From Gemmatimonadales bacterium (GTDB lineage Bacteria > Gemmatimonadota > Gemmatimonadetes > Gemmatimonadales > GWC2-71-9), in NCBI GenBank assembly GCA_036265815.1, contig DATAOI010000037.1:1-64000 (forward strand): a stretch of DNA of 64,000 nt, given 5' to 3'. A model generated the notes under the pieces. That model had not been told where the DNA came from and searched no databases. It was given only the letters and a program-made list of their open reading frames with translations. A program made the translations under genes and the position numbers. How positions within the stretch are numbered: position 1 is the first letter of the stretch; every line of letters begins with the position of its first letter. Shown one piece after another: positions 36,961 through 52,221 of this stretch.

Positions 36961-37322
36961 GAGGGGAGCTTACCACCGTCATAAGCTCCGTCAAGTTAAG
37001 CGACGAGTCGGGCGCGCAAGCCAGGGGGGCCAGCTAGGCCCGGGGTCAGGCTAAGCCCGATCAGCAACGAGATCAGGTATCGCTGGCTGACGCTCATGGC
37101 CTTTGGTGGGGATTGTCATAAAGATCGTCATAACGTAGCCGCTATGGAGCTGGCGACCAGAGCAGAGGAGAGCAGGCGAGGCTAGCGGTTGCCCCCCGGA
37201 GGGTCGATCACCGGCCAACGGTCTGAAGCATGGGAGAGCGTGTGCACGGAAGGTGGGAAGGTGAACGGTCACCATTGAGGGCGGCTCGTTCCACGGTACG
37301 CCTCAAGCTCTCTGCTCCCAGC
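36961..37322. other. Gap marking the left edge of the accessory region
   Basis: No gene seen. Contains the arm-type repeat at 37108-37132 and, at 37239-37260, a 22-nt sequence repeated with one mismatch at 39783-39804. These tie it to the integrated elements to the right. Confidence 0.5.
37108..37132 (+). repeat. Left-end arm-type repeat, copy 1
   Basis: 25 nt identical to 45364-45388. Contains two direct GTCATAA heptamers 12 bp apart. In both places it is preceded by a GCTGACGCT-containing segment. In the other copy it lies 92 bp inside an att site; here no att copy is found to its left, so that boundary has been lost. Confidence 0.65.
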
Positions 37323-38360
37323 TCAAGTCCTCTCTCCCTCAACCACCGACAGGTGGCTCTCGGTAGAGACGACGCGCCGCAGCCGGAACCCTGACCGCTG
37401 CAGCAAGTTCTGGAACTCCACCTTGGTGCGCTCGCGCCCACGTGGTGTTAGCACCAGCATCTCGAGGTCGAGGAGCTTGCCGAAGTGCGCCGCGTTACCC
37501 GCCGGGATCACCGCGTCGACAATCAGCACTTTCCCGCCAGGCCGCATCGCACGGTGGCAGTTCCTGAGGATCTGGGTCGCTCGCTCTTCATCCCAGTCGT
37601 GAATGATGTGCTTCATGATGTAGGCGTCGCCTCCCTCTGGAACGAACTCGAAGAAGTCGCCGCTGACGATCTGGCAACGATCGGCGAGGCCGCGGCTCTG
37701 GAGCAGCGCCGGTGCTCCGGCGGTCACATGCGGAAGGTCGAAGAGGATGCCGCCCATCCTCCGGTTCGTTTTGAGTATGGCTGTGATCAAGAGACCGTGC
37801 CCGCCAGCGACGTCCACTAAGGTGCCGACCCCCGAGAAGTCGTAGGCTGCGACCACCGCCTGAGACTCAAAGGTGCTGATCGATGTCATCGCTGCATCGA
37901 AAACCGCAGCGGCTTCTGGCATCCTCGCGTAGTACTCGAAGATGGGCATGCCGAAGACCTGGTCGAATGCCGGCTCGCCAGTGTGAACGCTGTGGCGAAG
38001 CTCTCCCCACGGTCGCCACGTGCTCTCGTGTCCTATGAATCGAGCATAACCGCCGATCGCTTCGGGCGAGTCCGTGCGCAACCGCTTGCCAAGCGGAGTG
38101 AGCCGGAATCTCCGTTCTCCGGTCTCGGCGAAGAGCCCGACGCTCCCCAGGGCGCGGAGCAACCGATAGACGCCGTCTTCGGAAGCGTTCGCCGCGCGCG
38201 CGATATCGGCGGCCGCCTTAGGACCGTCCTTCAAGAGGTCTACAATGCCGAGCTCGGCGGCAACGGCAATCGCCTGACTCACCCATTTGCCGGCGGTCAG
38301 GTTGATCAGGATCATCGCGTCGGAAGCCTTCTTTGCTGGTGCCGGTCTCGGTTTGGGCAT
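37323..38360 (-). CDS. Class II O-methyltransferase (SAM-dependent)
   Basis: 345 aa, ATG with AAGGAGGGG. N-terminal dimerisation/winged-helix part (AVAAELGIVDLLKDGPKAAA, GVYRLLRALGSVGLF), SAM-binding motif TLVDVAGGHGLLITAIL, ILFDLPHV, and the catalytic region YIMKHIIHDWDEERATQILR with the His-Asp pair. Related to plant-type and polyketide O-methyltransferases acting on small phenolic or polyketide hydroxyls. Lies between an element end repeat and an integrase remnant, so probably cargo of a shrunken element. Confidence 0.85.
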   Translation of the reverse strand: MPKPRPAPAKKASDAMILINLTAGKWVSQAIAVAAELGIVDLLKDGPKAAADIARAANASEDGVYRLLRALGSVGLFAETGERRFRLTPLGKRLRTDSPEAIGGYARFIGHESTWRPWGELRHSVHTGEPAFDQVFGMPIFEYYARMPEAAAVFDAAMTSISTFESQAVVAAYDFSGVGTLVDVAGGHGLLITAILKTNRRMGGILFDLPHVTAGAPALLQSRGLADRCQIVSGDFFEFVPEGGDAYIMKHIIHDWDEERATQILRNCHRAMRPGGKVLIVDAVIPAGNAAHFGKLLDLEMLVLTPRGRERTKVEFQNLLQRSGFRLRRVVSTESHLSVVEGERT

Positions 38361-38467
38361 GTCCCCTCCTTAGTTCAGATCGAAGACGCTCGCTCGGAGT
38401 TTGTCTCGCTCGGCGCCCCGGAGCAGCACTTCGAGCGGCTCGGGGATCAGCTTCGGCGGCTGGGATC

Positions 38468-38488
38468 TGACATAACTACTGTCATAAA
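38468..38488. repeat. Right-end arm-type repeat, copy 1
   Basis: 21 nt, one mismatch to 51894-51914: TGACATAA facing GTCATAAA. Lies inside the integrase 3' coding remnant, 70 bp from the att core. Confidence 0.55.
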
Positions 38489-38507
38489 AGGCGAGGCGGG
38501 AAAGCGC

Positions 38508-38544
38508 AAACAAGAACCCCGCGACACCGAAGTCTCAGCGGGGG
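38508..38544 (-). terminator. tRNA-type terminator beside att copy 1
   Basis: Minus strand: hairpin CCCCGC...GCGGGG with a UUCG loop, then TTCTTGTTT. It follows the tRNA-Arg 3' half by 14 nt, as expected for the native terminator of that tRNA. Confidence 0.6.
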
Positions 38545-38558
38545 AAGATCTTCCAGAG

Positions 38559-38600
38559 TGGGCCCGGCGCGACTCGAACGCGCGACCTCTTGCTCCGGAG
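38559..38600 (-). repeat. att site, tRNA-Arg(CCG) 3' half, copy 1
   Basis: On the minus strand the 42 nt read: anticodon loop CTCCGGA (anticodon CCG), stem GCAAG, variable AGGTC, T-stem/loop GCGCG-TTCGAGT-CGCGC, acceptor CGGGCCC, discriminator A. The 5' half of the tRNA is absent. Identical at 45231-45272 and 51985-52026. Confidence 0.9.
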
Positions 38601-38783
38601 GGGCGGCGAGCCGCCTGAGGGCGCTGACGGGCGATGATTCCCAAGGACTTAGGCTCTGTCAACGCTGGCCGGCGTTGGCTAGCGCTGGTGTGAATTGTCA
38701 CCCGGAACGGCACCCGCGATTTATGACTCCGCTGCCCTGGTCGCATGGTGACTTGAGGCACATCAAGAGTGGCACCGCCTTGA

Positions 38784-39476
38784 CTACTGATCGAGCTCTC
38801 GGAAAAGGTTAGTGCGCACTTGCTGCAACGAACGTCGGAGACTATCTACTCTGACCTGCGCCGATTCAACCGAGTCTTTCGCATCCATCCAAAAGCTCGT
38901 TCGCTCCGCGGCTAGTGCAGCAAGGAGAGTGGCGGACTCCGTCAGAAATTGCCGAATGGCCTGGACATCATCTGGTCTGATCCAAAACTGGTTCCGATCA
39001 AGGTACCGGCCCACGGAATCGAGCGCTGCCCATTCGGGAAGATACAGTATCCTTTCCTCTCGTTCCGCGGCCGCGAGCTCCACCTGTCCTACCATTGGGA
39101 TCACACCAGCCGCATCCCTTTTACGACGGTGCGCTGTCTCGGATAGGATCTTCGCCCGCTGAAGGAGGCGCTCATCTAACCGACCGCGCTCTTCAAACGC
39201 CTTGCGTGCACTGTCGATTGAACTAAACCCCCGCAAAGGGTTCTTGACGCGCAAACCACGAATGCGCGCGTCTGCGTCATTGGCCAGTTCCCACGCGTTC
39301 GCTGTTGCTTCCAGCCTCTTCTCGGCAAGTCTTGAAGCGAAGACTTCTCGTGTCTTATAGGCTTCTAGGGCGCGGCTGGCGAAATGGCCGAGAAGGAGAA
39401 TGATTCCAGCGATCAGAAGTTTGTCAATAACAATCTTGGCGATGGCGGACCCAAACGGCTCGGCCGATTGCGCCAT
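38784..39476 (-). CDS. Hypothetical membrane protein with long cytoplasmic helical part
   Basis: 230 aa from ATG 39474-39476 (GAGGAAC upstream). One N-terminal TM helix (KLLIAGIILLLGHFASRAL), then a charged, helix-rich domain with repeated hydrophobic spacing (coiled-coil-like, for example AEREERILYLPEWAALDSVG). No family recognised. Base composition is lower in GC than the chromosomal part. Confidence 0.7.
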   Translation of the reverse strand: MAQSAEPFGSAIAKIVIDKLLIAGIILLLGHFASRALEAYKTREVFASRLAEKRLEATANAWELANDADARIRGLRVKNPLRGFSSIDSARKAFEERGRLDERLLQRAKILSETAHRRKRDAAGVIPMVGQVELAAAEREERILYLPEWAALDSVGRYLDRNQFWIRPDDVQAIRQFLTESATLLAALAAERTSFWMDAKDSVESAQVRVDSLRRSLQQVRTNLFRELDQ

Positions 39477-39557
39477 ATCTGCTGTTCCTCGGGTTATAGT
39501 CGCGTGAGGGCTGAGGCTCGGTTGACGGTAATGGGCAATGATCCGCCATGTACCTAG

Positions 39558-39704
39558 ATCGAGGGGAACCAGGCAAGGGTTCGAGCGAAGACTAACTCGG
39601 GCTGGCCGCTGCGGGATAGGACCCAAGCTGCTCGCCTTCTGCTCCCGGAGGCGCTATGGGAGGCGATTGATAGGCTAAAGCTGATCCCACCGCTCGGACC
39701 GTAA
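39558..39704 (+). pseudogene. Remnant of the ALWEAID repeat family
   Basis: Open frame without a start codon: SGWPLRDR, then LLLPEALWEAIDRLK and an in-frame stop. Matches the remnants at 42055, 42638, 48342 and 48682. The middle of the family pattern (ELLAFxARLA) is deleted here. Confidence 0.5.
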
Positions 39705-39819
39705 CCCCCTGGTCCGTGTGCGGGCTCTGCGGTCCGGAGGTGCGCGGGAGTACGCCTATTGCGGCCGGTTGCCTCTGTGGATCGTGTGCACGGAAGGTGG
39801 AAAGACACTAAGTCGAAGC

Positions 39820-40314
39820 CTACTCGAGGGCTGGACACTCGGGTGGCACAGCAGGTGGCGTCGTATCGAGCGGCTGAGGAATGACCTTCCCGTCCACGTG
39901 CACCTCCACCTCGATGTTCGGGGCGGGAGGAGGGATAAAGTTGAGGTCCACCTGACGAGGTGGGCGCCCGTCCAGCTGCGCCAGGTCACGCTCCACGGCG
40001 GTGAACTCATTCTGGAGGAGTTCAAGCTGCCGACTCAGAGCAACCTTCCGGTTTTGCACTCGCGCGATCGTATCTGCGGGGTCGCAGTCTTGCAGTCGCG
40101 CATAGAGGGCGCTGGCCTTGATCGCCTCAAGCATCACATGCTCGATGCGAGCGCCACTCTGGACACGCTGGTTGGTCACCGCTAACTCGTGCTCCTTCCA
40201 TCGCCAGCAACTTCCCTGGCCAATCGTGAGGGCGAGCACGGCGCCGAGGGCCGTCCCCAGTTTGCCGCGATGCTCCCTCATCGCATTCCAGAACCGAGCG
40301 ATCAGGTGCTCCAC
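39820..40314 (-). CDS. Hypothetical membrane-anchored protein, fourth gene of the small operon
   Basis: 164 aa; GTG directly follows the TGA of the gene upstream. N-terminal hydrophobic segment (LGTALGAVLALTIGQGSCWRW), then a coiled-coil-like region (VQNRKVALSRQLELLQNEFT) and a Pro-rich C-terminus (IPPPAPNIEVEVHVDGKVIP). Resembles phage spanin- or holin-like accessory proteins only in general layout; no function assigned. Confidence 0.65.
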   Translation of the reverse strand: MEHLIARFWNAMREHRGKLGTALGAVLALTIGQGSCWRWKEHELAVTNQRVQSGARIEHVMLEAIKASALYARLQDCDPADTIARVQNRKVALSRQLELLQNEFTAVERDLAQLDGRPPRQVDLNFIPPPAPNIEVEVHVDGKVIPQPLDTTPPAVPPECPALE

Positions 40315-40575
40315 TCAAGTCTCCCCCAGCAGCCGGAGCGCCTCCCTGCCGACGTCAGTGCAGCGTGCCGCAGCACCCCGCCGTGTCTGCCCTCTCTGGC
40401 GCTTCTTCTCGTCGGCAATTTCGAGCTCCACCCACCCGGCCCTCTGCAGGTCCTTGAGTCTTGCGAGAGTGGCCTCGTATCGCCCCAGGGCCGCTCGCCC
40501 AGCACCCTCGGGCCTGAAGGTCACCACGTCTACGGCGGCGAGGGACTTGAGAAGGGCAATCTCCGCCTCGGTCAC
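40315..40575 (-). CDS. Small hypothetical protein (86 aa), duplicated in element C
   Basis: GTG start overlapping the upstream stop (GTGA). Helical, charged; LKSLAAVDVVTFRPEG and LARLKDLQRAGWVELEIADE suggest a winged-helix-like small domain. A degenerate paralogue lies at 45801-46130. Function unknown. Confidence 0.7.
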   Translation of the reverse strand: MTEAEIALLKSLAAVDVVTFRPEGAGRAALGRYEATLARLKDLQRAGWVELEIADEKKRQRGQTRRGAAARCTDVGREALRLLGET

Positions 40576-40829
40576 AGCTCGGGGTCGCCTCGCTGCAGTT
40601 CCTTTATCCGGGCACGCACTGGTTCCGTCAGGCGATCGCAGCAGCCTTGCACATCGAGCTGCAGGGTGTCCGTGCTTCGGCCACGGACCAGGATAGTCGC
40701 CGGCTCTCCGTGAACTGGGCAGCGAACGTCGTCCACGTACCGACGCAACCCGTCTACTGCCGCCTGGGCCACCGCGCGACTCAGTTCATCCTGCCAGCCC
40801 TCCTCATCGAACTCCCAAACCACTGTCAT
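40572..40829 (-). CDS. Small hypothetical protein (85 aa) with Cys motifs
   Basis: ATG 40827-40829, overlapping the preceding gene by 26 nt. Acidic N-terminus (MTVVWEFDEEGWQDELSR), then VRCPVHGEPATI and QGCCDRL, a possible small metal-binding pattern. No family recognised; it has no copy in element C. Confidence 0.65.
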   Translation of the reverse strand: MTVVWEFDEEGWQDELSRAVAQAAVDGLRRYVDDVRCPVHGEPATILVRGRSTDTLQLDVQGCCDRLTEPVRARIKELQRGDPEL

Positions 40830-41040
40830 CGCACTCCTCCTTCCCGATCTTCGGGCGGCGCTGCGCTGACTCCAGCAGATGCTCGGCCGCATGCAGGACC
40901 TTCCCTGGGGTGTCCAGCCACACGTAGCCAGACAGCGGATCGCCGTGACCGGCTAGGCCCATGGGTTCGGGGTGGCGCTCCAGAACCAGCACCCACTCCC
41001 GCGGCAGGCCGGGCAGCTTCCAGGCCAGCCTGGGCGGCAC
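40804..41040 (-). CDS. Small hypothetical protein (78 aa), first of a four-gene operon
   Basis: GTG start. Core LPREWVLVLERHPEPMGLAG and GYVWLDTPGKVLHAAEHLLE. A copy with a stop in place of one Trp codon lies at 47340-47534 in element C, which shows that this reading frame was under protein-level constraint. No function recognised. Confidence 0.65.
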   Translation of the reverse strand: MPPRLAWKLPGLPREWVLVLERHPEPMGLAGHGDPLSGYVWLDTPGKVLHAAEHLLESAQRRPKIGKEECDDSGLGVR

Positions 41041-41114
41041 CCGGGCCTAACGTCGATGAGGGGTTGAGGGAGGCGCGTTATCGTCGGACATGGGAGAGAT
41101 TTGTAGTGCTGCTT

Positions 41115-42047
41115 CTAAGGTGACTTGTTCCAGCACTTAGAGCTCGCTAACACAGCACCAATATCGGAACTTCGGAGTCGAATCACGTTGCGCGCAGCAC
41201 CGGCCGCAGGGCTGACCACAAGAAGGCCGCCTCCATCGAAATGCAGTAATAGCGGAGCCGAACGCACGGCAACGTCTCGACTGGGTAGTTCGGCGAGCCC
41301 GAGATCCTTGGCCGTTGCCGGAGCTACCGCATTCCCTGTGATGTCCACTAGGACGCACGAAGGACTAGGTCCTCCGAGCTCTCGTGGGATGAGTGGAAAC
41401 ATAAGGAGCGAATAGAGGTAGCCGGACGCCAGCAGAATCACGGTCACGAGCAGGCGGAATGGCCAAAGCAGTCGTTTCACTCCTGCACGAACGAACAGAG
41501 CAATGGCGAGGCAGTTCAAGAAGAAAACGATGAAAATGCCTACGATCGTACCAACTACACCTAAGCGCAAGGAAACGGACTCCGATAGTCGGGCGAGACT
41601 CATAGCGGACATTGCTAAACCAGTCACCGAGTACCCGTTATGAAGTGCGCGCTTCCGATCCACCTCAGCTGCGGCGGGGCTGATAGCTCTGACTACCCAA
41701 GTACCGACCAGGAGAAGTACGAAAGGGAAAATACCGGCGAGAAAGTATTGACCTTCCAGCGGTGGCAGCACACCAAGTCCACGACGGGCTGAATAGATGG
41801 CCCATGTGCTGTACCCTAAAACGTAAATTGCGGTTGCGACGAATAGCGTCGCATCCCGAAGCTCTCCCATAGCCAGGAGACGGGTGCGGAGCGTGGTAGG
41901 TTCGGCAGGGTTGCTTAACCCGTCTGCTGGCGGGGAAGGCAGCTCCGTCAACGCCGGCGGGGAGGCCCGCGCAGTCCGGCTGCCGATGGTCCATCCTGGC
42001 CCTAGTGGTTGAGCCGGCGTTGACGGTGGATTGGTAGTGTCGGGCAT
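41115..42047 (-). CDS. Hypothetical membrane protein, about five TM segments
   Basis: 310 aa. Disordered Pro/Thr-rich N-terminus (about 60 aa), then TM helices (TLFVATAIYVLGYSTWAIYS, GIFPFVLLLVGTWVVRAI, VGTIVGIFIVFFLNCLAIAL, LLVTVILLASGYLYSLLMF) and an extracytoplasmic C-terminal domain. No family recognised. Confidence 0.7.
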   Translation of the reverse strand: MPDTTNPPSTPAQPLGPGWTIGSRTARASPPALTELPSPPADGLSNPAEPTTLRTRLLAMGELRDATLFVATAIYVLGYSTWAIYSARRGLGVLPPLEGQYFLAGIFPFVLLLVGTWVVRAISPAAAEVDRKRALHNGYSVTGLAMSAMSLARLSESVSLRLGVVGTIVGIFIVFFLNCLAIALFVRAGVKRLLWPFRLLVTVILLASGYLYSLLMFPLIPRELGGPSPSCVLVDITGNAVAPATAKDLGLAELPSRDVAVRSAPLLLHFDGGGLLVVSPAAGAARNVIRLRSSDIGAVLASSKCWNKSP

Positions 42048-42054
42048 GGGGACA

Positions 42055-42186
42055 ATGCTAACGCGGAGTACCGAGGAGCGTGAGGTGGAGGATTACCGAG
42101 GCTGGCCACTCCGGCAGCGGCTCGAGCTGCTGGCGTTCGAAGCACGACTCGCAAGAAACGCGACTATTCCGATTCAAAAACCGTGA
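42055..42186 (+). pseudogene. ALWEAID-family remnant, N-terminal part
   Basis: 43 codons from an ATG with GWPLRQRLELLAFEARLA, the first half of the family pattern, then cut off where the convergent cupredoxin gene begins (22-nt overlap). Confidence 0.5.
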
Positions 42187-42604
42187 TCATGCCCAACTTA
42201 GAATGCGGAGGCAAGCTGTCCGCGTTCTGAAACTGGCACATGAGGAGGTAGAGGTCCCCGGCCCGGACATCGACGAGCAACCGCTCATGGGCGGTCACCC
42301 CGGCAGGAGCCCAAAGCACGCTGCCAGCGCCATCGACCGCCAAACTGTCCGGGAGATCGGTCGTTAGGCGTCGGAGGGCTGAGTCGCGCGAAATGTGAGG
42401 TCGCAGGTGGTAGAACTGAACCTCGTGAGGGACAGTGCCGCGATTGACGAATCTGAAGGCAACGAGGCCCGGCTTGATCTTTGGTGGGACTTGGAAAGCG
42501 TAATCGGTGGCGACAATCTCGATCTCGGAAGTCTCAGTCCATCCTCTGCACCCAGTGATGGCGAGAAGAAAGACCACGCTAGGCACGACGTGGTACAGGG
42601 CCAT
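42164..42604 (-). CDS. Cupredoxin-like lipoprotein
   Basis: 146 aa from ATG 42602-42604 (the frame is open 17 codons further). Lipobox AITGC. Beta-sandwich with type-1 copper ligands in order: His in VPHEVQF, Cys in LLMCQF, His in PPHSK and Met in LGMITVFE. Predicted extracytoplasmic electron carrier or copper-binding protein; partner unknown. Complete and apparently functional within a decayed element. Confidence 0.75.
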   Translation of the reverse strand: MALYHVVPSVVFLLAITGCRGWTETSEIEIVATDYAFQVPPKIKPGLVAFRFVNRGTVPHEVQFYHLRPHISRDSALRRLTTDLPDSLAVDGAGSVLWAPAGVTAHERLLVDVRAGDLYLLMCQFQNADSLPPHSKLGMITVFESE

Positions 42605-42637
42605 GAAGCTGTCGACGCCAGGTTGAGAGTCTTCTGC

Positions 42638-42877
42638 ATGATACCGGATGAACACAATCCCGCTAGATCCTACGCCGGACTCTCCGTTCGCGACCGGCCC
42701 GAGCTGCTCGCATTCGATGCCCGGCTCGCCGGGGTACCGCCGGCGCTGCTGGAGGCGCTCTGGGAGGCGATCGACCTGCTCCGAGTTGACGTCACTCCCG
42801 AAGCGGACCTCCAGACTGAGCCTAGGCGCTCAACAACTACTTCCCGTCCCACTCAAGCCCGGACCCGCCCTCAATGA
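42638..42877 (+). CDS. ALWEAID-family small protein, longest copy
   Basis: 79 aa. RDRPELLAFDARLAGVPPAL and LLEALWEAIDLL give the most complete version of the family pattern, followed by a Thr/Arg/Gln-rich tail. No strong ribosome site (GAGAG 12 nt upstream). Its 3' end overlaps the convergent gene at 42837. May itself be a remnant. Confidence 0.45.
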   Translation: MIPDEHNPARSYAGLSVRDRPELLAFDARLAGVPPALLEALWEAIDLLRVDVTPEADLQTEPRRSTTTSRPTQARTRPQ

Positions 42878-43226
42878 ATCTGGCACTCCCATAGCGTCTA
42901 ATCAGGTCAGGACCCGGGGACGGGCCGTTCAGGGTCACTCGGTAGGCGTGCATCGGCTTGTGCCGGTACATGGTGTTCCGGATTGTGAGTAATGCCCTCT
43001 CAGCAAAGCCTTGAGCGGACCCTGTAAGTTCTTCGGGCGCCAACTCAAAGGTCGCGACCAGCCACCCCGCGTCGGTGACTTCCAGTGTTTTGGGTGGCGG
43101 CAGATGCTCGCCGCGTAGGGCCGCCGCGATACCTGAGCGGTCCTGATCGCCCAGCTGTGGGGAAGGGGTCGTTTCGCAGGAGATGAGGAACGCGACAGAG
43201 ACGCAGAGTCCCGCCCAGGTTTTCAT
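42837..43226 (-). CDS. Hypothetical lipoprotein
   Basis: 129 aa from ATG 43224-43226 with GGAGG. Lipobox FLISC. Small mature domain (LEVTDAGWLVATFELAPEEL, YRVTLNGPSPGPDLIRRYG). No family recognised. Confidence 0.65.
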   Translation of the reverse strand: MKTWAGLCVSVAFLISCETTPSPQLGDQDRSGIAAALRGEHLPPPKTLEVTDAGWLVATFELAPEELTGSAQGFAERALLTIRNTMYRHKPMHAYRVTLNGPSPGPDLIRRYGSARFIEGGSGLEWDGK

Positions 43227-43425
43227 GGCGCCTCCGTTCAAAAGAACCCTCCTCGTTTGGGACCGATTCCTTCTGTGGCGGCTTGGTCTGACGAGTAGAA
43301 TGGGGACCAAGCTCTTGAGCAAGCGATCTTCGATCTTCCTAGCCACACCAGAGCAGATCACTTGTTCCCTAACCTGCAAGACTATTCGGACTATTTAGCA
43401 AAGGACCAGCGTCAAAGGCCACGGG

Positions 43426-44433
43426 TCACTGCGGTATGGTTATGCCGATCTTGTCGAGCATTGCTCTTCCCAGAGGAGCAGCCCACGCAGGCCTACACGC
43501 CACGAGAACAAAGGCCGAGCCAATACCAAGTATGGTCTTCCGGTTGTTGAACAGACTGTGACGATGAACGGCGTACAGCGAGCGCAGGAGTAATGGCCAC
43601 CCGATCCTGTGCAATCCAAGCGTGAGGAGAAGCCCGAGCAACAGCCCAGGCGGAATGAGAGTGGTGATTGTCAAGCCGATGAGAGAAAGGCCAAAAGCGC
43701 TTAGTTCAGGACTGTTCTCTCGGTGGTAAGCAATCGTTCCAGGTAGAGCAACGAGCACGACTATCATCGCTACGCCTAGAAGGAGCATGAGCTGAGATCT
43801 GAACGAGTTGGCGCTGCTCACGGTTCGTATCAGCCTTCTCAGCAGGGCCACCGCTGCAATGTCCATTATCACCGCACAAGACATGGCCAGCTCCAGAATA
43901 CGCCAACTTGTGCTGGCGCTGAAACGGTGGCCAGGCTGCGAGCCTGAGACTATGAACCCTGTGCATATCATGAAGGCCACAAGGGCGAGGGCTGCTCGTT
44001 GCGCTGTTCGTCCTTGTGGCCGCTGAAAGCTTCGGAGAATCGCCCACCAAAGCAACAATGCCATTAACCCCAAAGAGACCACGCTTCCTGGCTTGCCCCA
44101 ACCACGGTGCAGCACAATTGCCAAGAGCGTTATGCTGCTAACAAGCGTAAAGGCGACAGCCGCTTGCAATAGGAAGCTTATCGAAAATGCCCTCGCGGAG
44201 AGGAGGCGTTCTCCATAGATGACTACGAGGACGCGATCCACAAGCCGCGTTGCGCCGCTGAGAAACGCAGTGTGTCTTGATAGGGCAGTAGGTTGGATCC
44301 TGCTCAATCCTACCCAGAGCTCTTGAATACGATCCTGCACCTGGCCTTCCTCATCCTCGTAGAGGAACGCGACAGCAACAATGAGGGTGAATCCGAAGAC
44401 GCCTTCTGCAAACCTCAACAGGAGTTCTGCCAC
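43426..44433 (-). CDS. Hypothetical polytopic membrane protein
   Basis: 335 aa, GTG start. About eight TM helices (FTLVSSITLLAIVLHRGW, VSLGLMALLLWWAIL, ALALVAFMICTGFIVSG, IIPPGLLLGLLLTLGL-like). No transporter signature recognised. No Shine-Dalgarno before the GTG. Confidence 0.65.
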   Translation of the reverse strand: MAELLLRFAEGVFGFTLIVAVAFLYEDEEGQVQDRIQELWVGLSRIQPTALSRHTAFLSGATRLVDRVLVVIYGERLLSARAFSISFLLQAAVAFTLVSSITLLAIVLHRGWGKPGSVVSLGLMALLLWWAILRSFQRPQGRTAQRAALALVAFMICTGFIVSGSQPGHRFSASTSWRILELAMSCAVIMDIAAVALLRRLIRTVSSANSFRSQLMLLLGVAMIVVLVALPGTIAYHRENSPELSAFGLSLIGLTITTLIPPGLLLGLLLTLGLHRIGWPLLLRSLYAVHRHSLFNNRKTILGIGSAFVLVACRPAWAAPLGRAMLDKIGITIPQ

Positions 44434-44827
44434 TTAGAGCCTACCAATAGGCCAGCCAAGCTGATTTGTGAATACAAAGACTATGAGATCGAAGGACGGG
44501 ATATCCACAGAATGAGTCTGTTGTTCGGAGTTCCGGACACGCACATCATGGGGGTAGGTGCGGCCAAGGGGACCGGACTGGGGATCTTCACCCGCACCTC
44601 TCGCTTGCACGTCTCGCAGAGGAGTGTGCCCAAGGATCACCCCAGCCAAATGTTGGATTGGCTCTGACAGGCGCGGAGAGGCAGCGGAATGATCGGAGGT
44701 CGAGCAGATGATAGCCCTCGGTACATGACCCCGCTAGGGCGCTGAGAGCCGATTCGTTTTGTTGGGGCTGTGCGGCCCCCTACGGCCCTAACGTGCGGTA
44801 AACGGCCAGGTCTTGCGAATCGCGGGG
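44434..44827. other. Gap without a recognised gene
   Basis: 394 bp; frames here have no ribosome sites or family motifs. Probably holds the promoter of the membrane protein gene at 43426. Confidence 0.4.
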
Positions 44828-45091
44828 TCATCGTACCACCAAGTAAAAGTCGTTGCCCCAAAGCCAAGTGCCAGGGTTGGGGGCGCCCTCTTCCTCCGCC
44901 TGCTCCTGCTCCGGTTCAGAAGCAACAATCCAGAAGCGTAGATGATAGAAGCCAGGGTTGCGGGCTGGGGCCACGAAGATGTATTGCGATTTGATACCGG
45001 GCATTAGGCGAAGGCCGTTGATCGTATCCCCGGGTGGCTGGACGTAGCGAGCTGGAATGGAGACAGGCACCTGCGCAGGATTTGCGCTCAC
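44828..45091 (-). CDS. Hypothetical protein, probably 5'-truncated at the element end
   Basis: 87 codons from GTG. Beta-rich with many aromatics (YIFVAPARNPGFYHLRFWIV, WLWGNDFYLVV). The 5' end runs into the integrase remnant, so the front of the gene may have been lost in recombination. Function unknown. Confidence 0.45.
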   Translation of the reverse strand: MSANPAQVPVSIPARYVQPPGDTINGLRLMPGIKSQYIFVAPARNPGFYHLRFWIVASEPEQEQAEEEGAPNPGTWLWGNDFYLVVR

Positions 45092-45171
45092 GCAAGCCTG
45101 CCGAGGCTCTCAAGGACCGGCTCGGAGCCATCGGGTTTGTCACCCGGAAGGACACCGCGGAAGGGGAGGAG

Positions 45172-45214
45172 GTCAGAAACGAAGTACCCCGCGCATCGGT
45201 AAGCGATGGCGGGG
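45172..45214 (-). terminator. tRNA-type terminator beside att copy 2
   Basis: Minus strand hairpin CCCCGC-CATCG / CGATG-GCGGGG, then TACTTCGTTTC. The stem sequence differs from the other two copies but pairing is kept. Confidence 0.6.
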
Positions 45215-45230
45215 TTACATCTTCGGAGAG

Positions 45231-45272
45231 TGGGCCCGGCGCGACTCGAACGCGCGACCTCTTGCTCCGGAG
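45231..45272 (-). repeat. att site, tRNA-Arg(CCG) 3' half, copy 2
   Basis: Identical 42 nt to copies 1 and 3; junction between elements B and C. Confidence 0.9.
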
Positions 45273-45363
45273 CGCAGGCCACCGCGCCAGCCGCCGTCAG
45301 CCGGCGCTGATTCTCCCTGAGATTTGGGCTCTCATCGCTCGCTGACGCTGACCAGCGTTGGCG

Positions 45364-45388
45364 GGGATTGTCATAAAGATCGTCATAA
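45364..45388 (+). repeat. Left-end arm-type repeat, copy 2
   Basis: Identical to 37108-37132; two GTCATAA heptamers. 92 bp from att copy 2, a position typical of integrase arm-type sites. Confidence 0.65.
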
Positions 45389-45408
45389 ACCGGGGAGCCG
45401 GCGTCAGC

Positions 45409-45672
45409 CTAGCGCCGGTGGAACGTCAGCGGCAACACCCCACTCTCTTGGACCACCCCCGCGGCTTCTGAGAGCGAGATCGGAATGGCCACCGAGTCCG
45501 CGCCGAGTGACCCCATCGCGCCGGCCCACGTGCCCTCGGCCTCGGGCTCTGGCTGCGGCGGGGTTGGATCGGTCGGCGGCTGGACGTCACTTCCCGCTCC
45601 ACCGCAGGCCGTGAGGGTGAGCGCGGCCGCCGTGGCGAGTACAGAAAACCATCTACGGGCAAACAGGGGCAC
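45409..45672 (-). CDS. Small lipoprotein, possibly 3'-truncated
   Basis: 87 aa from GTG 45670-45672, which gives a normal signal peptide (WFSVLATAAALTLTAC); the frame is open to 45735. Pro-rich spacer then a short beta-like region. The stop lies close to the element's left end, so the original C-terminus may be missing. Confidence 0.5.
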   Translation of the reverse strand: MPLFARRWFSVLATAAALTLTACGGAGSDVQPPTDPTPPQPEPEAEGTWAGAMGSLGADSVAIPISLSEAAGVVQESGVLPLTFHRR

Positions 45673-45800
45673 GCCTGGCGGGAGCAAAGTAGCACTACGC
45701 CCCTCGCCTGAGGGGTATCGTTCTGACGCGGACAACTTGGGGTCCTTGGTCCGGCGATGACAGCCGGCCTTGGCAGGGAGAGGTGAACTGCTAACCCAAG

Positions 45801-46130
45801 CTACCGCCCGGTCCGGCCAATAGATAGTCCGACCACCGCTGGTGAACGACTTGCGCTCGATGGCGAGGGCGGGCGAACTCCCCTAACAGCCGCAGCCTCT
45901 CTACACGCCCCCATGCACCGCCCGGCCAGCTTCCGCAACGGGTGCCCGCCCTTCCGCCGCTTGTCTTCTGCTACCTGGAGCTCCACCCATCTTGTCTTTC
46001 GCATCTCGCGCAGGCTATCCAGGGTCACCTCGAACCGGGCCAGCGCCGCGGCCGTGTGTCCCTCGGGCACAAAGGTCACCACGTCGGCTTCGGCGAGCGA
46101 GCGCAGGATGGTGATCTCGGCAGGGGTCAC
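45801..46130 (-). pseudogene. Degenerate paralogue of the 86-aa gene at 40315
   Basis: N-terminal 60 codons match well (ILRSLAEADVVTFVPEG, WVELQVAEDKRRKGG), then the frame shifts: one base change of register restores a segment like the ERLRLLGE end of the paralogue. The annotated frame continues into an unrelated basic tail. Confidence 0.6.
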
Positions 46131-46268
46131 GCTGGCTCCAGAATTGTACCAGTGTGTCCTCAGTCGAGCAGGACGGCCTATCAATCCGGCGGCCGAGTGG
46201 TATGTTTCGCCTAAGTACCGAACACCTCCTGTCAAGACCGGCCGTCTCCGCCGGATGCAAGAACTCAC

Positions 46269-46661
46269 ATGTCGTCCCCACCAGCCGCCCGCCCAGGGGC
46301 GCTTCGCATCGTCATCTGTGACTATAACGCGCTGCTGCATTCCGTCACTGGCCTGCTGCGGATGAGCGGCTATTATGTCTTTCAAGCCTACAATGGAGAA
46401 GCCGCCGAGGAGTTGTGCTCTGACCTGCACGGGATTGGACTGCTGGTGCTCAACACGGAAGGCACTGGGGTAGATACACCGGCGCTGGTCCGGTCCATCC
46501 GGAAGACCCATCCCGGGCTGCCGGTGCTTCACATCGGGACGGCGCCCATCCCCGGCATGCCCTCGAATGTGCAGCACCTGCCGGAGTCGTTCACCGCCGC
46601 TCAACTCCTCCAAACCGTGAGCGGCCTCGTGCCTGGGCCGCAGGTGGTGCCGCAGCCGTAA
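46269..46661 (+). CDS. Pseudo-receiver (REC-like) protein
   Basis: 130 aa. CheY-like layout (LRIVICDYNALLHSVTGLL, GYYVFQAYNGEAAEEL, LLVLNTEGTGVDTPALV, LPVLHIGTA) but the phosphoacceptor Asp is N62 and the switch Lys is E106 (LPESF). It cannot be phosphorylated in the usual way and may bind a partner constitutively. A frameshifted relative lies at 47892. Confidence 0.75.
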   Translation: MSSPPAARPGALRIVICDYNALLHSVTGLLRMSGYYVFQAYNGEAAEELCSDLHGIGLLVLNTEGTGVDTPALVRSIRKTHPGLPVLHIGTAPIPGMPSNVQHLPESFTAAQLLQTVSGLVPGPQVVPQP

Positions 46662-46814
46662 CGTCGATGACCGGGGGGGGCAACTTTCTTCCCTCTTCGG
46701 ATCCCACCGCCGATCAGGTCCCGGGCTTTTCGGCTACGCGCCGCGCTTCTACATGCTCTAGCCAAGCAAACCTTTGCGAGCAGCTTGCTGAGGCGACGCG
46801 GCGAGTTGCCGCGA

Positions 46815-47237
46815 TCACGTGACTTCAGGTGCGCCAGTGTCCCGCTCTCCCCGCCGCAGGTCTGCCCTGGCATCCTCCGCCAAGCGGCCGTAGCCGGCCC
46901 GAATGTGGTCGAGTTCGATCTGTTCGAGCTCTTCAAGGTCGAGCAGGGCGTTATGAGCGCCCTTGGTCGCGCGAAGCAACTCGTCCAGCTTCACCTGCAC
47001 GGCCTCCGCATCACGGTTTTGGGTATTCTGAATGAGGAACACCATCAGGAAGGTGACGACAGTCGTACCGGTATTGATCACCAGTTGCCACGTATCGCTG
47101 AACCGGAACAAGGGTCCTGTCACTAACCAGGCAAGGATCACAGCAACCGCGAGGATGAAAGCCGCGGGTCTGCCCGTCGCTCGTGCCGTAGTCTTAGCGA
47201 AAAGCGTAAACCGCGAACGAGACTTTGTCGGGCGCAT
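46815..47237 (-). CDS. Low-affinity iron permease-like membrane protein
   Basis: 140 aa. Two TM helices (FILAVAVILAWLVTGPLF and LVINTGTTVVTFLMVFLIQN) and the family signature NTQNRDAEAVQVKLDELLRA, then a charged C-terminal helix. Matches the iron_permease (PF04120) family, whose bacterial members are of uncertain transport role. Confidence 0.85.
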   Translation of the reverse strand: MRPTKSRSRFTLFAKTTARATGRPAAFILAVAVILAWLVTGPLFRFSDTWQLVINTGTTVVTFLMVFLIQNTQNRDAEAVQVKLDELLRATKGAHNALLDLEELEQIELDHIRAGYGRLAEDARADLRRGERDTGAPEVT

Positions 47238-47339
47238 TGTCTATTTCTCCCTTGTACCTACCATCGGCCGTTGGTGACGCCGTGCGCAAAGTATCAGGCC
47301 GCTCTCGTATGCTCGCAGCAGAGTTGACGGAAGGGGAGT

Positions 47340-47534
47340 TCACGACCTCAGGCCCTCCCTGAACTCCAGCAGGTGCTCGCTCATGCCCAGCACCTTCTGC
47401 GGCGTGTCCAGCCACACATAGCCGGGAGTCGGGTAGCCATCATTCGTCAGGCCGATCGGCGCGGGATGCCGCTCGAGCACCCGCACCCAGTCTCTCGGTA
47501 GACCGGGCCGTTTCTAAGCGAGCCCGGGCAGTAC
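47340..47534 (-). pseudogene. Degenerate paralogue of the 78-aa gene at 40804
   Basis: Aligns over its length (LPRDWVRVLERHPAPIGL, GYVWLDTPQKVLGMSEHLLE) but the start codon is GTA and a Trp codon of the paralogue is TAG here. Confidence 0.7.
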
Positions 47535-47571
47535 CCGGGCCCAGCGTTGAATCTTGTTTGACCCCTGCGTC

Positions 47572-47817
47572 TCACTCCGTGGCATCTGTTCTCCGCGATG
47601 GGGGCTCCGGTCGGCTTTCCGGCCCTCCACGAAACTCGAAATGCTCAGGGTTCAGCACTCGATCCCACCCGAACAGCCCACTCTCCGCGCGCCGCAGGCG
47701 CCAAGCGATCAGTTTCTCGGTGATCACCGCGGCGGCCTCCCAGACGTCCGCAGTGAGCGGCGGGTAGGCCTGGGCGAACTCCGGCCGGAGCCGGGCCTCA
47801 CGGGACTCTGAGCTCAT
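47572..47817 (-). CDS. Small protein, HFEFRGG family member D
   Basis: 81 aa, ATG with GAGGGATGG. Closest to the family consensus: REARLRPEFAQAYP, then V-W and RVLNPEHFEFRGG. Its presence in the mobile element while A-C are chromosomal suggests mobility of the family or capture. Function unknown. Confidence 0.7.
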   Translation of the reverse strand: MSSESREARLRPEFAQAYPPLTADVWEAAAVITEKLIAWRLRRAESGLFGWDRVLNPEHFEFRGGPESRPEPPSRRTDATE

Positions 47818-47891
47818 CCATCCCTCAAGCGCGGCGATGCTGAAGACTTGTAGAGGGTGCGCACGCCTTCGGGACGCTCCTCGCAGGATGG

Positions 47892-48187
47892 ATGCGACAG
47901 GTTGTCGAGGTGCGGGCGCCGCGACGCCCTTGGCAGACGGCAAGCTTCGACCTGGTGATCACCAGCAACTGCATGCCCCACATGAGCGGTGCTGAAGTGG
48001 TGAAGCGATTACACCAGCTCTTCCGGCTCTGCCTGTCCTCCACATCGACGACCTGTCACGCCTTCCGGTCAAGACTTCCCAGAGGGCGTGCGGACACCAT
48101 ACGAGCCCTTCAGTATCGCTGCGCTTCAGGAGGCCGTGCGGACACTGCTGGCGGGATTCTCGTCCTTGCGAGGCTCGGGTTTTTAGG
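47892..48187 (+). pseudogene. Frameshifted receiver-domain remnant
   Basis: FDLVITSNCMPHMSGAEVV in one frame (phosphoacceptor already Ser), LPVLHIDDL in a second, and YEPFSIAALQEAVRTLLAG, the normal receiver end, in a third. Related to the pseudo-receiver at 46269. Confidence 0.65.
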
Positions 48188-48341
48188 CATGGCTCGGGAG
48201 CAGATGCCTGTCCAGTATGATGCGCGACTCCTCAATTCGCCGTATGGCGCAGGCGATCAGCGCGAACGCGCTGGCGAGAACGAGGTCATGGCGGTTCTCA
48301 GGTGACTCGCTCGGGTACGGCTTCGAGGAGGTCATGCAGAA
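48188..48341. other. No supported gene
   Basis: Short frames on both strands without ribosome sites. Confidence 0.35.
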
Positions 48342-48479
48342 ATGTACCACGAGGGACGGACCCGCGGGCTCGCGAGGGTACCGCCGACGCTCTTGGAGGC
48401 ACTCTGGGAGGCGATCGATGGGCTCAGCGGCCGTCAGGTTCAGCTCGCTGGGACTGGCGAGCTTCGCGGGCGGCTCTGA
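48342..48479 (+). pseudogene. ALWEAID-family remnant, element C
   Basis: 45 codons: VPPTLLEALWEAIDGL, followed by an unrelated Gln/Gly-rich end. GAGGAGGT lies upstream. N-terminal half of the family pattern missing. Confidence 0.45.
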
Positions 48480-48681
48480 CCTCAGCGAGAAGGCTCTGGG
48501 ATGCGGCGCGCGTCCTAGCCGCGTCAGCACAGATTTCGGCAGACCGCTCCGCGATTTCCTGGGTGATCTTCCTCAAGGCGAGAAAGGATTCAGGAGGATA
48601 ACCCGCGAGACACATCTCCGCACGCTACGTCTCGCCGGCTCGCCGCTCAAGCGGGCTGTTCAGGCTATCCAGACGCTCCTA

Positions 48682-48705
48682 GGAGGCGCTTTGGGAGGCG
48701 ATCGA
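48682..48705 (+). repeat. Fifth trace of the ALWEAID repeat
   Basis: 24 nt coding EALWEAIE in a frame interrupted just upstream by a stop; matches 39647, 42751 and 48395. Confidence 0.45.
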
Positions 48706-48710
48706 AGGAA

Positions 48711-49214
48711 CTAGGGGACCTTGGGAGCCTCAGGACAAGGACGTGCGGTAAACGGGCAATAGAAGCCCTGCTGCTCCCGCTGAACCTTCCCCGGTCTAGC
48801 CTCCTCAAGCAGTCCAGGGTAGAAGGCGCCGACATCGGCGGTCTTCACGACGAGGAACTCATACTTGTCCATCCGCAGCCGCGCGTTACTGACAGCGAAG
48901 TAATCAAAGAGTCCCCGCAGCGCCTCATCGTCGCTGGGAAAGCCCTGTTCAGCCCGGGCGGTGGCGAGCCGGACCGCCCACTCCCCGCGAAAGTCGGCCC
49001 GTTCCTCCTCCGTGAGCGGCGGGATTTCAATTACGGGGATCTCCAGCCGGCCGCCCGCGAGCCCGGCGCGCCGGTCGCACTCGTCCCGCCAGCGGGTGTA
49101 TCGGCCGAAGGGGCAGAGTGAGCCGGAAATGACCTCTCCGGCGACTACGACGGTGATGGCGCGTTGGTATCCAACCTCCTCAACTTCTCGGATCCAGTGG
49201 ATGATCGGATGCAT
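48711..49214 (-). CDS. Hypothetical protein, probably phage-derived
   Basis: 167 aa, ATG with AAGGAGG. Soluble, with four Cys (SLCPFGRY, DECDRR, FYCPFTARPC) and a helical middle (EWAVRLATARAEQGFPSDDE). Lies 30 nt after the phage tail-like gene on the same strand. No family recognised. Confidence 0.6.
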   Translation of the reverse strand: MHPIIHWIREVEEVGYQRAITVVVAGEVISGSLCPFGRYTRWRDECDRRAGLAGGRLEIPVIEIPPLTEEERADFRGEWAVRLATARAEQGFPSDDEALRGLFDYFAVSNARLRMDKYEFLVVKTADVGAFYPGLLEEARPGKVQREQQGFYCPFTARPCPEAPKVP

Positions 49215-49244
49215 GTCAGCCCTCCTTAAGGGCGGTGTCGAGGC

Positions 49245-50531
49245 TCATGGAAAGAGCACGCTGTCCACCGGCAGCCAGAGCGCGCCTTCCTCGGCATCTG
49301 GCCCGATGGGCGGCGGCTCGGTAGCCACATGCACCCGGCGTGGCTTGCCCCGCATCCAGTCATGGTAGGCCGCAATGGGCTTCCCGCGGGTGCGGATCGT
49401 GGTCGTTGATTCTTCAGCGCCGAGCGAGTGCTGGTAGCTCACCACGCTCCAGTCCTGGTCCGTGTCATAGTGGACCCCGTTCGCCTGGAAGCGAATCAGG
49501 TCATTCAACTGCACGGGCCAGAAGTAGCGGAGGCTCACTTCCTGGCTCGCAAACGGCTCGCAGAGGTCGCTGGCCGCCGCGTCCACCATGCGGGTGATCT
49601 CCTCCAGCGTGTCCACGTTGCTGCTCGAATCTTCTACGACCTGCATGAACCGGCGGCCATACTTTTGGATTGAGCTGGTGAGTCGGCCGGCGAGCGCCGC
49701 ATCGGTGGTGCTGCTGCTCTGGTAGGTCAGCCGGTTGCCATACCACCCGCGCACCACGTTCCGGATATCGTCACCGATGAGCGTCAGGTCGCGCACGTCG
49801 AAGTATTCGGTCGGACCCAGGGTGAGATCCGGCCGGGTCTTGGTGCGGTCCGGATCGAGGAAGTAGAGTTGCGGCGCCTCGTCGCCGCCGACGTTCCGGT
49901 AGCGGAGGTCCCAGCCGATCTGGAGCGCCAGCTTCCGGAGCGCCTCGAGCATGGGCATCTGCTGCTGGTTGAACTGCTTGATGTCCCAACCCGGCGACAC
50001 CGGAGTGACGAGGCTCAAGGTAGGGACGCTCACCCCGAGCGGCGGCAGGGCCGAGGCGCCGGCTGTCAGTATCTGCTGCATGACGGTCTCGACCGGCGTG
50101 CCGCCCAGAGTGCTGTAGGCTACTGAGTCCTCGATCACGCGGTTGAGCAAGAGCCCACCCCGGTCCCGAATCTGCAGCACCACCGTGTCGTCCGGCCCGG
50201 CGACGTCGATGTTGTCGATGAGGCCATCGAGCACCCGCTGCCACTCCGTCGGGTTCGGTGGCACGTCGGGGTGGGTCACGTTGGTGAGCAACCGGAACCG
50301 GCGGCCCACGTCCAGGGCGGGCGCGGGGCTATTGATCGCCGGACCCAGCATCAGCGGGGAGAGGTTGCCGTCCCCCGTCCCACGGCCCTCATGCAGACCC
50401 GGCGACTTCGTCTCACTGCTGGCTCGCGATTCACGCCAACGCTGATTCAGGAGCTGCTCACCTTCCAAGTGAAGATTGACCCACTGACGGCGCATGACAG
50501 CTACGGCAACTGGCGTCGCGAGGGGGCGCAT
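49245..50531 (-). CDS. Phage tail-like structural protein, 5' end replaced
   Basis: 428 codons. From about residue 75 it reads as a phage tail/baseplate-type protein (DDTVVLQIRDRGGLLLNRVI, MLEALRKLALQIGWDLRYRN, LDPDRTKTRPDLTLGPTEYF, FWPVQLNDLIRF). The first 60 codons are antisense to a terminase fragment, so they are not original; ATG 50351 is a possible real start. No other structural genes remain. Confidence 0.55.
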   Translation of the reverse strand: MRPLATPVAVAVMRRQWVNLHLEGEQLLNQRWRESRASSETKSPGLHEGRGTGDGNLSPLMLGPAINSPAPALDVGRRFRLLTNVTHPDVPPNPTEWQRVLDGLIDNIDVAGPDDTVVLQIRDRGGLLLNRVIEDSVAYSTLGGTPVETVMQQILTAGASALPPLGVSVPTLSLVTPVSPGWDIKQFNQQQMPMLEALRKLALQIGWDLRYRNVGGDEAPQLYFLDPDRTKTRPDLTLGPTEYFDVRDLTLIGDDIRNVVRGWYGNRLTYQSSSTTDAALAGRLTSSIQKYGRRFMQVVEDSSSNVDTLEEITRMVDAAASDLCEPFASQEVSLRYFWPVQLNDLIRFQANGVHYDTDQDWSVVSYQHSLGAEESTTTIRTRGKPIAAYHDWMRGKPRRVHVATEPPPIGPDAEEGALWLPVDSVLFP

Positions 50532-50630
50532 GACGACCTCGTGTTGGCCCTCGCGGTGGCAGCCTGGCAGGCGGCCCGCTGGCGCCCGAGCACGCTGCCG
50601 ATTCCCTCAGCCTCGTACAGCACTCTCTGA
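50421..50630 (+). pseudogene. Phage terminase large-subunit C-terminal fragment
   Basis: LIQELLTFQVKIDPLTAHDS and GAHDDLVLALAVAAWQA match the end of terminase nuclease domains (HDDLVLALA motif). Everything upstream of it is missing; it faces the tail-like gene on the opposite strand. Ends 16 nt before the integrase. Confidence 0.7.
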
Positions 50631-50646
50631 CCAAAGGAACGCGAGT

Positions 50647-52095
50647 ATGACTCCGCGGAAGCGAAGGTCACGGGTTTACTGGAACCACGGCCGCCTCTGG
50701 GGCGACTTCCGGGACTATGCCGCAGTGGGTGGCACCCGCGAGCCGCTCATCCCTGCAGGCGCGAAGTTGGCCACGTCAGACCCCGATCTCGCGGCTCGGC
50801 TCGCCGATGTGCGTCTGAAGGAGCTGCGCGAACTCCAGCGGGCGCAGCAGGACACGGGTCGGGTGCCGGCGCCGTCGCTCGCGGGCTTCGCTCGGGACCA
50901 CCTGATCGCCAAGAAGAGGGCAGGGAACGTGACGGACGGCTGGCTTGCCGCAACCGAGGGATTCCTCAAGCGTGCGGTCGCCTTCTTCGGGGCAGAGCGG
51001 GGGCTCGACCGGATCCGACCGAGCGAGGTCCGCGGCTTCGCAGAATGGCTCACGAGCCAGCCAGCGCGGAAGCCCAAGGAGCGGAAGGAAGCGGGCTCGA
51101 GCCGGACCATGACCACCTATACGGTGCGGGCGCATCTCTTCGCGCTCTCGAACCTCTACCGGCGAGCGCAGGAGAGCGAGTTGGTGCCGGTCGGCTTCAA
51201 CCCCGTTGCGGCCCTGATGGAGAAGCCTGCGGTCGTACGGAAAGAGGCAAAATGGCTGGAGGTGCACGAGGCCGCGCTTTTGCTGGAGTCAGCCAGGACC
51301 CTCCCAGTGCTCCAGACCGCCGCCGGCGCCGCGATCGGGGCGAGCCTCGCGCATCCCTTCCTCGCCACCTTCCTGCTCACCGGCGGTCGCTACCACGAGG
51401 TCCTCGGCCTGGAGCTCGATGACGTGAGCTTCGATCGGAAGACCGTCACCTTCCGCCCCAACGCCTTCAGGCGACTCAAGACCCAGACCTCCTGGCGCGT
51501 CGTGCCCCTCTTTCCGCAGCTCGAGGCGATTCTTCGGGCCTGGGTCTTCGGGCCGCGGCTCGAGGCGGGTGGCACGCTGCTCTTCCCGGCCCCTGGCTCG
51601 ACTGAGATGCTGAGCGATACGCGGAAGCTGCTCGACCGGATCGCCAAGTGGGCCGGCTGGAAGCGAGGGGAGATCCGGCACCGCATTTTCCGGCACACCT
51701 ATTGTGCGGCCAGGCTGCAGACGCTCGACCGCGGCGCCCCGGTGAGCCTCTACGTGGTGAGTCGGGAACTCGGCCACGGGAGCGAGGAGATGTACTCTCA
51801 TCTGGGCGCTGTCCGCCATCGCTCAGAGGTGGTCGAGTACCGGGTCGAGCGGCACTATGAGCGGCTCGGCGATCAGCTCATCCGGCTCGCGTTTGACATA
51901 ACTAGTGTCATAAAGCAGCCGAGCGCCGAGGCAAAAGAAGACCCCCGCGACACCCAAGTGTCGGCGGGGGAAGATCTTCCAGAGTGGGCCCGGCGCGACT
52001 CGAACGCGCGACCTCTTGCTCCGGAGGCGGGCGGAGCCAGCGCTGGCTGGCGAAAGGCAGCGCCAGCCACTGGTATCGAAGTGGTTGTACGCTGA
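50647..52095 (+). CDS. int: Tyrosine recombinase (integrase) of element C
   Basis: 482 aa, ATG with AAAGGA. N-terminal arm and core-binding part (about 75-195), catalytic domain with R248 (TGGRYHE), box II RIFRHTY (R349, H350), LGH (H377) and nucleophile Y383 (MYSHL). After the catalytic domain the frame runs on through the arm repeat, the tRNA terminator and the tRNA-Arg att core (EWARRDSNARPLAPE) to a stop in unrelated DNA, so its true C-terminus depends on the integrated state. Very likely responsible for integration at tRNA-Arg(CCG). Confidence 0.9.
   Translation: MTPRKRRSRVYWNHGRLWGDFRDYAAVGGTREPLIPAGAKLATSDPDLAARLADVRLKELRELQRAQQDTGRVPAPSLAGFARDHLIAKKRAGNVTDGWLAATEGFLKRAVAFFGAERGLDRIRPSEVRGFAEWLTSQPARKPKERKEAGSSRTMTTYTVRAHLFALSNLYRRAQESELVPVGFNPVAALMEKPAVVRKEAKWLEVHEAALLLESARTLPVLQTAAGAAIGASLAHPFLATFLLTGGRYHEVLGLELDDVSFDRKTVTFRPNAFRRLKTQTSWRVVPLFPQLEAILRAWVFGPRLEAGGTLLFPAPGSTEMLSDTRKLLDRIAKWAGWKRGEIRHRIFRHTYCAARLQTLDRGAPVSLYVVSRELGHGSEEMYSHLGAVRHRSEVVEYRVERHYERLGDQLIRLAFDITSVIKQPSAEAKEDPRDTQVSAGEDLPEWARRDSNARPLAPEAGGASAGWRKAAPATGIEVVVR
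51894..51914. repeat. Right-end arm-type repeat, copy 2
   Basis: TGACATAA facing GTCATAAA; one mismatch to 38468-38488. Confidence 0.55.
51930..51970 (-). terminator. tRNA-type terminator beside att copy 3
   Basis: Minus strand: CCCCCGC-GACAC-type stem closed by a TTGG loop, then TCTTCTTTT. Best U-tail of the three copies. Confidence 0.7.
51985..52026 (-). repeat. att site, tRNA-Arg(CCG) 3' half, copy 3
   Basis: Identical to copies 1 and 2. The DNA to the right does not restore the tRNA 5' half; instead a GCTGACGC segment like the element left ends lies at about 52092, so another element or remnant may start here. Confidence 0.9.
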
Positions 52096-52221
52096 CGCGC
52101 GCTGGCCGGCGACGGTGGATGCTAGGGTGCTTGGCACTAGTTCGTCACTATGAAGGTCGCTGGTACACATCGTCGCTCAGCCCGTCGCCTGCCTCATATG
52201 CTCGGCCTACCCGGACGACGG

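Follow-up and report, generated by a model that had tools for sequence, protein, structure and literature searches.

Integrative elements that probably accreted one after another and decayed at the tRNA-Arg(CCG) gene of a Gemmatimonadales bacterium

In a Gemmatimonadales bacterium (assembly GCA_036265815.1), the first 64,000 nucleotides of contig DATAOI010000037.1, which we call the window, hold a tandem array of integrative elements in which three exact copies of a 42-nt tRNA-Arg(CCG) 3' half delimit two head-to-tail elements, e2 and e3, and border the remnant of another, e1. The explanation that we favour, with a probability of about 85%, is serial accretion of integrative elements at the tRNA-Arg(CCG) gene followed by their decay, which makes the array similar to stacked cis-mobilizable elements (CIMEs). 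The window still holds three elements or more, and a fourth probably lies to the right of them. A system of this kind is ordinary and already known, and what is unusual is its repetition within one genome, at several tRNA genes.

The three 42-nt copies, or cores, all lie on the minus strand without a mismatch, at 38559-38600 (core 1, junction of e1 and e2), 45231-45272 (core 2, junction of e2 and e3) and 51985-52026 (core 3, junction of e3 and e4, the probable fourth element). They are spaced by 6672 and 6754 bp, so the initial annotation, which had read them as the boundaries of two head-to-tail elements of these sizes, is confirmed on this point. A pattern search of the whole source genome (G000; 4.59 Mb, 119 contigs, 99% complete, with the window on contig C37) found a fourth copy with one mismatch at 12352-12393 of contig C55. 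The backward control of the pattern gave no match in all 4.59 Mb, hence chance is excluded for these copies. ARAGORN and Rfam report no tRNA in the window, and the identity of the cores comes from relatives: in five genomes of the same genus (G002, G005, G006, G008 and G009) an intact tRNA-Arg(CCG) gene has these same 42 nt as its 3' half, which begins at the anticodon loop, in agreement with the initial assignment. A genome-wide search for the 5' half of this tRNA found none in the source assembly. Both e2 and e3 are thus flanked by a direct repeat of a tRNA end, as is typical of a tRNA-targeted element.

Element boundaries can also be followed by a second kind of signal, namely putative arm sites for the integrase, which all lie on the minus strand. 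Element e3 (45273-52026, 6754 bp) has one on its integrase side at 51894-51913 (TTATGACACTAGTTATGTCA, identical in G006) and one at its far end at 45369-45388 (TTATGACGATCTTTATGACA); e2 (38601-45272, 6672 bp) has its own arm type at both ends, at 45137-45156 on the integrase side (GGTGTCCTTCCGGGTGACAA) and at 38695-38714 at the far end (GGTGCCGTTCCGGGTGACAA); the e1 remnant (37114-38600), which keeps the integrase C-terminus, a methyltransferase gene and the far arm and has lost its far core, has sites at 38468-38487 on the integrase side and 37114-37133 at the far end. Each site is built of two similar 8-mers spaced 12 nt, and its distance from the core is 72-94 nt at the integrase end and 95-116 nt at the opposite end. 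The arm type of e2 is unlike that of e1 and e3; for the latter type shuffled sequences lead one to expect 0 matches, though the pattern was drawn from these very sites. When the two ends of one element are compared, the best 22-mer match reaches 17-21 in five elements and 15 in e1, while 3 of 300 random comparisons reach 17; as ends of different elements with the same arm type sometimes match too, the comparison shows arm type and not unique pairing. The same arm design occurs in elements at tRNA-Pro, tRNA-Ile and tRNA-Met, and complete relatives at tRNA-Pro and tRNA-Ile likewise have one type at both ends. The matching arms support the element boundaries. At each junction the order is arm, hairpin resembling a tRNA terminator and tRNA 3' half, just as the initial annotation had described for the right ends. 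What is more, a profile made from 13 arms, with that of e4 left out, scores 13.0 at 52143-52162, to the right of the third core, a score which about 1% of random 90-nt stretches reach. Three degenerate units at 52132-52162 (minus strand) stand there at the expected place, and they are probably the far-end arm of e4, so that a fourth element would end to the right of 52026.

The integrase genes, all on the plus strand, lie within the elements beside the cores and are in different states of decay. In e3 a tyrosine integrase gene occupies 50647-52095 (phrog_1, E 4e-26), and its frame stays open through the core; integrases reading across the attachment site of the incoming element (attP) are known for some phages and viruses (PMC4383910). 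When ten members of its clade are aligned, this integrase is the only one with a gap of four residues after the conserved LGH motif and before the catalytic tyrosine (HGSEEM----YSHLG), and to judge from its sequence it is probably inactive. The earlier description of it as intact is therefore right only in that no other integrase of the array is full-length. In e1 a C-terminal remnant is left at 38391-38600, with 65% identity to P0001 and C-terminal sequence reaching 38633, which together with the arm at 37114-37133 bears out the claim that remains of a third element are present. In e2 there is a trace of about 30 codons at 45186-45275 (a weak match, E 0.006), half of which is the core itself, with about 15 codons beyond it. 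Among the other clade integrases of the source genome a cousin on contig C2 is truncated and that on C55 is broken, and no clade integrase both complete and undamaged was found in this genome. A homolog in G082 has Phe in place of the catalytic Tyr. A comparison with IMG/VR gave a single relative, at 30%.

Besides the integrase, e3 holds two remnants which show its derivation from a prophage. At 50382-50582 (plus strand) is a remnant of a phage gene sited between terminase and integrase (phrog_27743, E 7e-6), whose family takes the same position in G006; at 49329-50237 (minus strand), inside an open reading frame (ORF) at 49245-50531, is a remnant of a phage tail protein, 38% identical over 302 aa to a G249 protein encoded two genes after a tape-measure gene. 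The tail protein has relatives only within the order, and IMG/VR and INPHARED gave no match to it. The two remnants lie on opposite strands, unlike the genes of a working late operon, which indicates that rearrangement joined them. Of a head, packaging and tail gene set e3 keeps these remnants only, so it is not a prophage any more. For e2, Pfam and, for the two ORFs tried, PHROGs gave no recognisable phage gene, and no relaxase, conjugation or replication domain was found in the scanned ORFs of e2 and e3.

The initial annotation had also proposed to look for the integrase in related genomes, and close relatives do occur, next to tRNA genes, in 12 of the 288 genomes of the order. The tRNAs beside them are Arg(CCG), Arg(TCT), Pro(CGG), Pro(TGG), Thr(CGT), Val(CAC), Met, Ile(GAT) and Ala(TGC), and wherever both element ends are available a displaced 3' half of 42-44 nt is present. 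In G006 an integrase 74% identical to that of e3 sits at tRNA-Arg(CCG) with a terminase gene adjacent to it on a contig that ends at 4.6 kb, which places a close relative in a phage context at the same tRNA and suggests that intact elements with this integrase type may be full-length prophages there. Three elements have both ends: one in G036, which measures 19.3 kb and carries an excisionase-like gene as well as a 1368-aa protein resembling, by eye, a tape measure; one of 7.1 kb at tRNA-Ile in G134, with integrase, AAA_25 helicase-like, AAA_21 and DUF4238 genes; and one of 1.5 kb in G002, without integrase. Separately, the Thr(CGT) integrases of the clade (L097, L098, L105 and L106) share the strand of the tRNA and are located upstream of it. 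Together with a displaced 5' half in G033 this suggests that the 5' half of the tRNA is used in this subgroup, which is the rarer mode.

The sizes of these relatives bear on the reading of the initial annotation, in which the near-equal units represent a family of autonomous small integrative elements of 6-7 kb, satellite-like or similar to integrative and mobilizable elements (IMEs), that accumulate in tandem. This has in its favour the 7.1-kb G134 element with its integrase, as well as units of 5.6 and 5.4 kb in a tRNA-Phe array of the same genome. We nevertheless regard it as unlikely, since the relatives span 1.5 to 19.3 kb, the terminase-linked and tail remnants on opposite strands of e3 fit a rearranged prophage, e2 and e3 show no replication or relaxase domain, and no clade integrase both complete and free of damage was found in the genome. 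The inference from near-equal size is accordingly not supported, and the similar sizes of e2 and e3 may be a coincidence of decay.

To locate the array in the chromosome, we compared its left flank with the related genomes. Window genes from 1 to 26 kb are collinear with the DNA downstream of tRNA-Arg(CCG), with 18 genes in G013, 14 in G012 and three in G036, so that the stretch 1165-25827 is conserved chromosome which anchors the array, and two more genes at 26-28 kb match G002 and G008 on the corresponding side. The zone between tRNA-Arg(CCG) and the conserved genes is variable in all compared genomes, at about 13 to 33 kb, and for the DNA at 30000-37000 no synteny but only scattered gene matches were found against the genomes of the genus. 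This collinearity puts the array on the downstream side of tRNA-Arg(CCG), which means that the tRNA is to its right. The Ala(GGC), Gly(GCC), Val(GAC) and Arg(ACG) tRNAs are also absent from the source assembly, and in the relatives they cluster together with Pro(CGG) and Arg(CCG). Because a cell can hardly do without all of these, the whole cluster is probably in an assembly gap. The Pro(CGG) gene is on contig C41, together with a phosphatase gene that in G002, G008, G012, G013 and G036 is found a short way upstream of tRNA-Arg(CCG), and no contig overlaps either end of C41 or the right end of C37. We infer that the tRNA-Arg(CCG) gene probably lies in the gap to the right of the array.

The same data weigh on another explanation, namely that the array was moved off tRNA-Arg(CCG) by rearrangement, for example between the tRNA-Met and tRNA-Arg arrays, and that its cores are detached fossils. 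The absence of the tRNA 5' half from the assembly would agree with this, as would a 3' half of the C91 tRNA-Met (41 of 42 nt) at 61333-61374 on the minus strand, oriented like the Arg(CCG) cores, and the Arg(CCG) core within the C55 tRNA-Met element. However, the conserved chromosome on the left corresponds to the DNA downstream of tRNA-Arg(CCG) in G012, G013 and G036 and, to a smaller extent, in G002 and G008, and the absence of the other needed tRNAs of the cluster from the assembly makes a gap likelier than a true loss, hence we consider such a move quite unlikely. Placing the array at the C91 tRNA-Met, as the Met half might suggest, was rejected as well, for C91 runs into C101 and the left flank fits the tRNA-Arg(CCG) locus. 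To the right of the Met half a long ORF (63562-65028) has no Pfam match.

A census of 41 tRNAs in the source genome, with stretches of up to 20 kb around each, showed further displaced 3' halves for Phe (two extra copies on C50), for the Met tRNA of C55 (C55 18067 and C116 3039) and for Gln(CTG) (C100 3354). At tRNA-Phe on C50 they make a second tandem array (L018 456-528, 6072-6113 and 11498-11539), which gives the units of 5.6 and 5.4 kb mentioned above; the cargo there comprises a kinase-TPR gene, a methyltransferase and a large cyclase-type gene, and no integrase was seen. On C55 (L015 6465-18108) the tRNA-Met stands between two displaced halves, a 5' one and a 3' one, with the Arg(CCG) core inside the 3'-side element, so that the elements are nested or scrambled. 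On C21 (57506-57536, L120) a 31-nt exact 3' part of tRNA-Lys(CTT) lies in opposite orientation about 7 kb from the tRNA.

The cargo of the Arg(CCG) array has counterparts elsewhere in this genome. An O-methyltransferase gene of e1 (37323-38360, minus strand; PF00891, E 9e-54) has a homolog with 81% aa identity in the tRNA-Phe array on C50; an 86-aa protein of e2 (40315-40575, minus strand) belongs to a family common to e2, e3, C2 and C101, and its paralog in e3 (45801-46130, minus strand) has 51% aa identity to it, so the partly paralogous cargo noted initially is real. A receiver-like protein of e3 (46269-46661, plus strand) has homologs on C55 and, in G005, at the tRNA-Arg(CCG) locus, and e3 also encodes a member of the low-affinity iron permease family (46815-47237, minus strand; PF04120, E 4e-51). 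Kinases to the right of e3 resemble one on C50, a weak link as such kinases look abundant in the source genome. A short repeat occurs in e2 and e3 (39619-39677, 42723-42781, 48367-48425 and 48679-48708) and once in C55 (L015 9525-9563). The repeat at 39600-39830 was considered as a genome-wide element and rejected, having just one other place.

One might further imagine that integrase-less units of 1.5-7 kb, with tRNA 3' halves at their ends and a cargo of host type (kinase, methyltransferase, receiver and small regulator-like families), travel among the Arg, Phe, Met and Gln arrays because related integrases act on them in trans, a genome-wide exchange like a slow cassette system, but to this idea we give a low probability, as a speculation. 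That unrelated pieces were fused at the 42-nt repeats by the assembly is highly improbable, for although the true tRNA is missing and nearby contig ends are dead ends, overlapping contigs share 141 bases, which makes an assembly word much longer than 42 probable, the two ends of each element agree in arm type, and the same layout is met on C50 and in G002, G036 and G134.

Under serial accretion and decay, phage-derived elements would each bring a tyrosine integrase gene that overlaps attP at its 3' end, and this attP would contain a copy of the tRNA 3' half, beginning in the anticodon loop and ending with the discriminator base. The integrase would bind the paired arm sites on both sides and recombine attP with the tRNA gene, by which the full tRNA and its terminator would be restored and the old 3' half pushed to the far end. 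Repeated with different incoming elements, this would yield head-to-tail units with identical 42-nt cores between them, each with its own arm type, and later the integrase and phage genes would be lost while some cargo is kept. Several points weigh against this explanation. The tRNA and the right array end are missing from the assembly, and it is synteny that puts the array downstream of tRNA-Arg(CCG); the inactivity of the integrase is read from sequence alone; no phage gene is recognisable in e2, whose phage origin is thus putative; and the tRNA-Met half on C37 together with the Arg(CCG) core on C55 shows rearrangement beyond simple stacking.

Accretion of elements at one tRNA gene is a known route by which genomes gather foreign DNA. 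The present analysis documents its repeated tandem form in Gemmatimonadota, for which a literature search on tandem tRNA accretion found no paper, and offers a case in which arm-site type, beyond the core repeats, tells stacked elements apart. It also illustrates that decayed prophages leave host-type genes beside a tRNA, and that such arrays break draft assemblies right at tRNA genes, where apparent tRNA loss can be an artefact.

Among known systems, the islands catalogued by Islander (PMC4383910), where 2168 genomes gave 125 tandems with at least two members and 4 with at least three, are like these elements in the tRNA 3' fragment at each end, the anticodon-loop subsite and the tyrosine integrase beside the core and crossing attP. 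Unlike the Islander arrays, for which an integrase was demanded in every member, e1 and e2 hold remnants only, and the complete tRNA is absent from the assembly. Tandems usually hold decayed elements, and their usual origin is integration, decay to a CIME and new integration (PMC5704250). As in CIMEs, both att sites are retained without a working integrase and the elements are stacked at one gene end, e2 keeping both cores, both arms and almost no integrase. CIMEs, however, are defined as derivatives of IMEs or of integrative and conjugative elements, whereas here one member is phage-derived, the scanned e2 and e3 ORFs have no conjugation gene, and the relatives show phage genes. Compared with prophage remnants at tRNA genes, the array differs in that e1 and e2 show no phage gene and e3, at 6.7 kb, contains rearranged remnants only; it is like them in the terminase-linked and tail remnants of e3 and in the integrase which G006 carries beside a terminase at the same tRNA.

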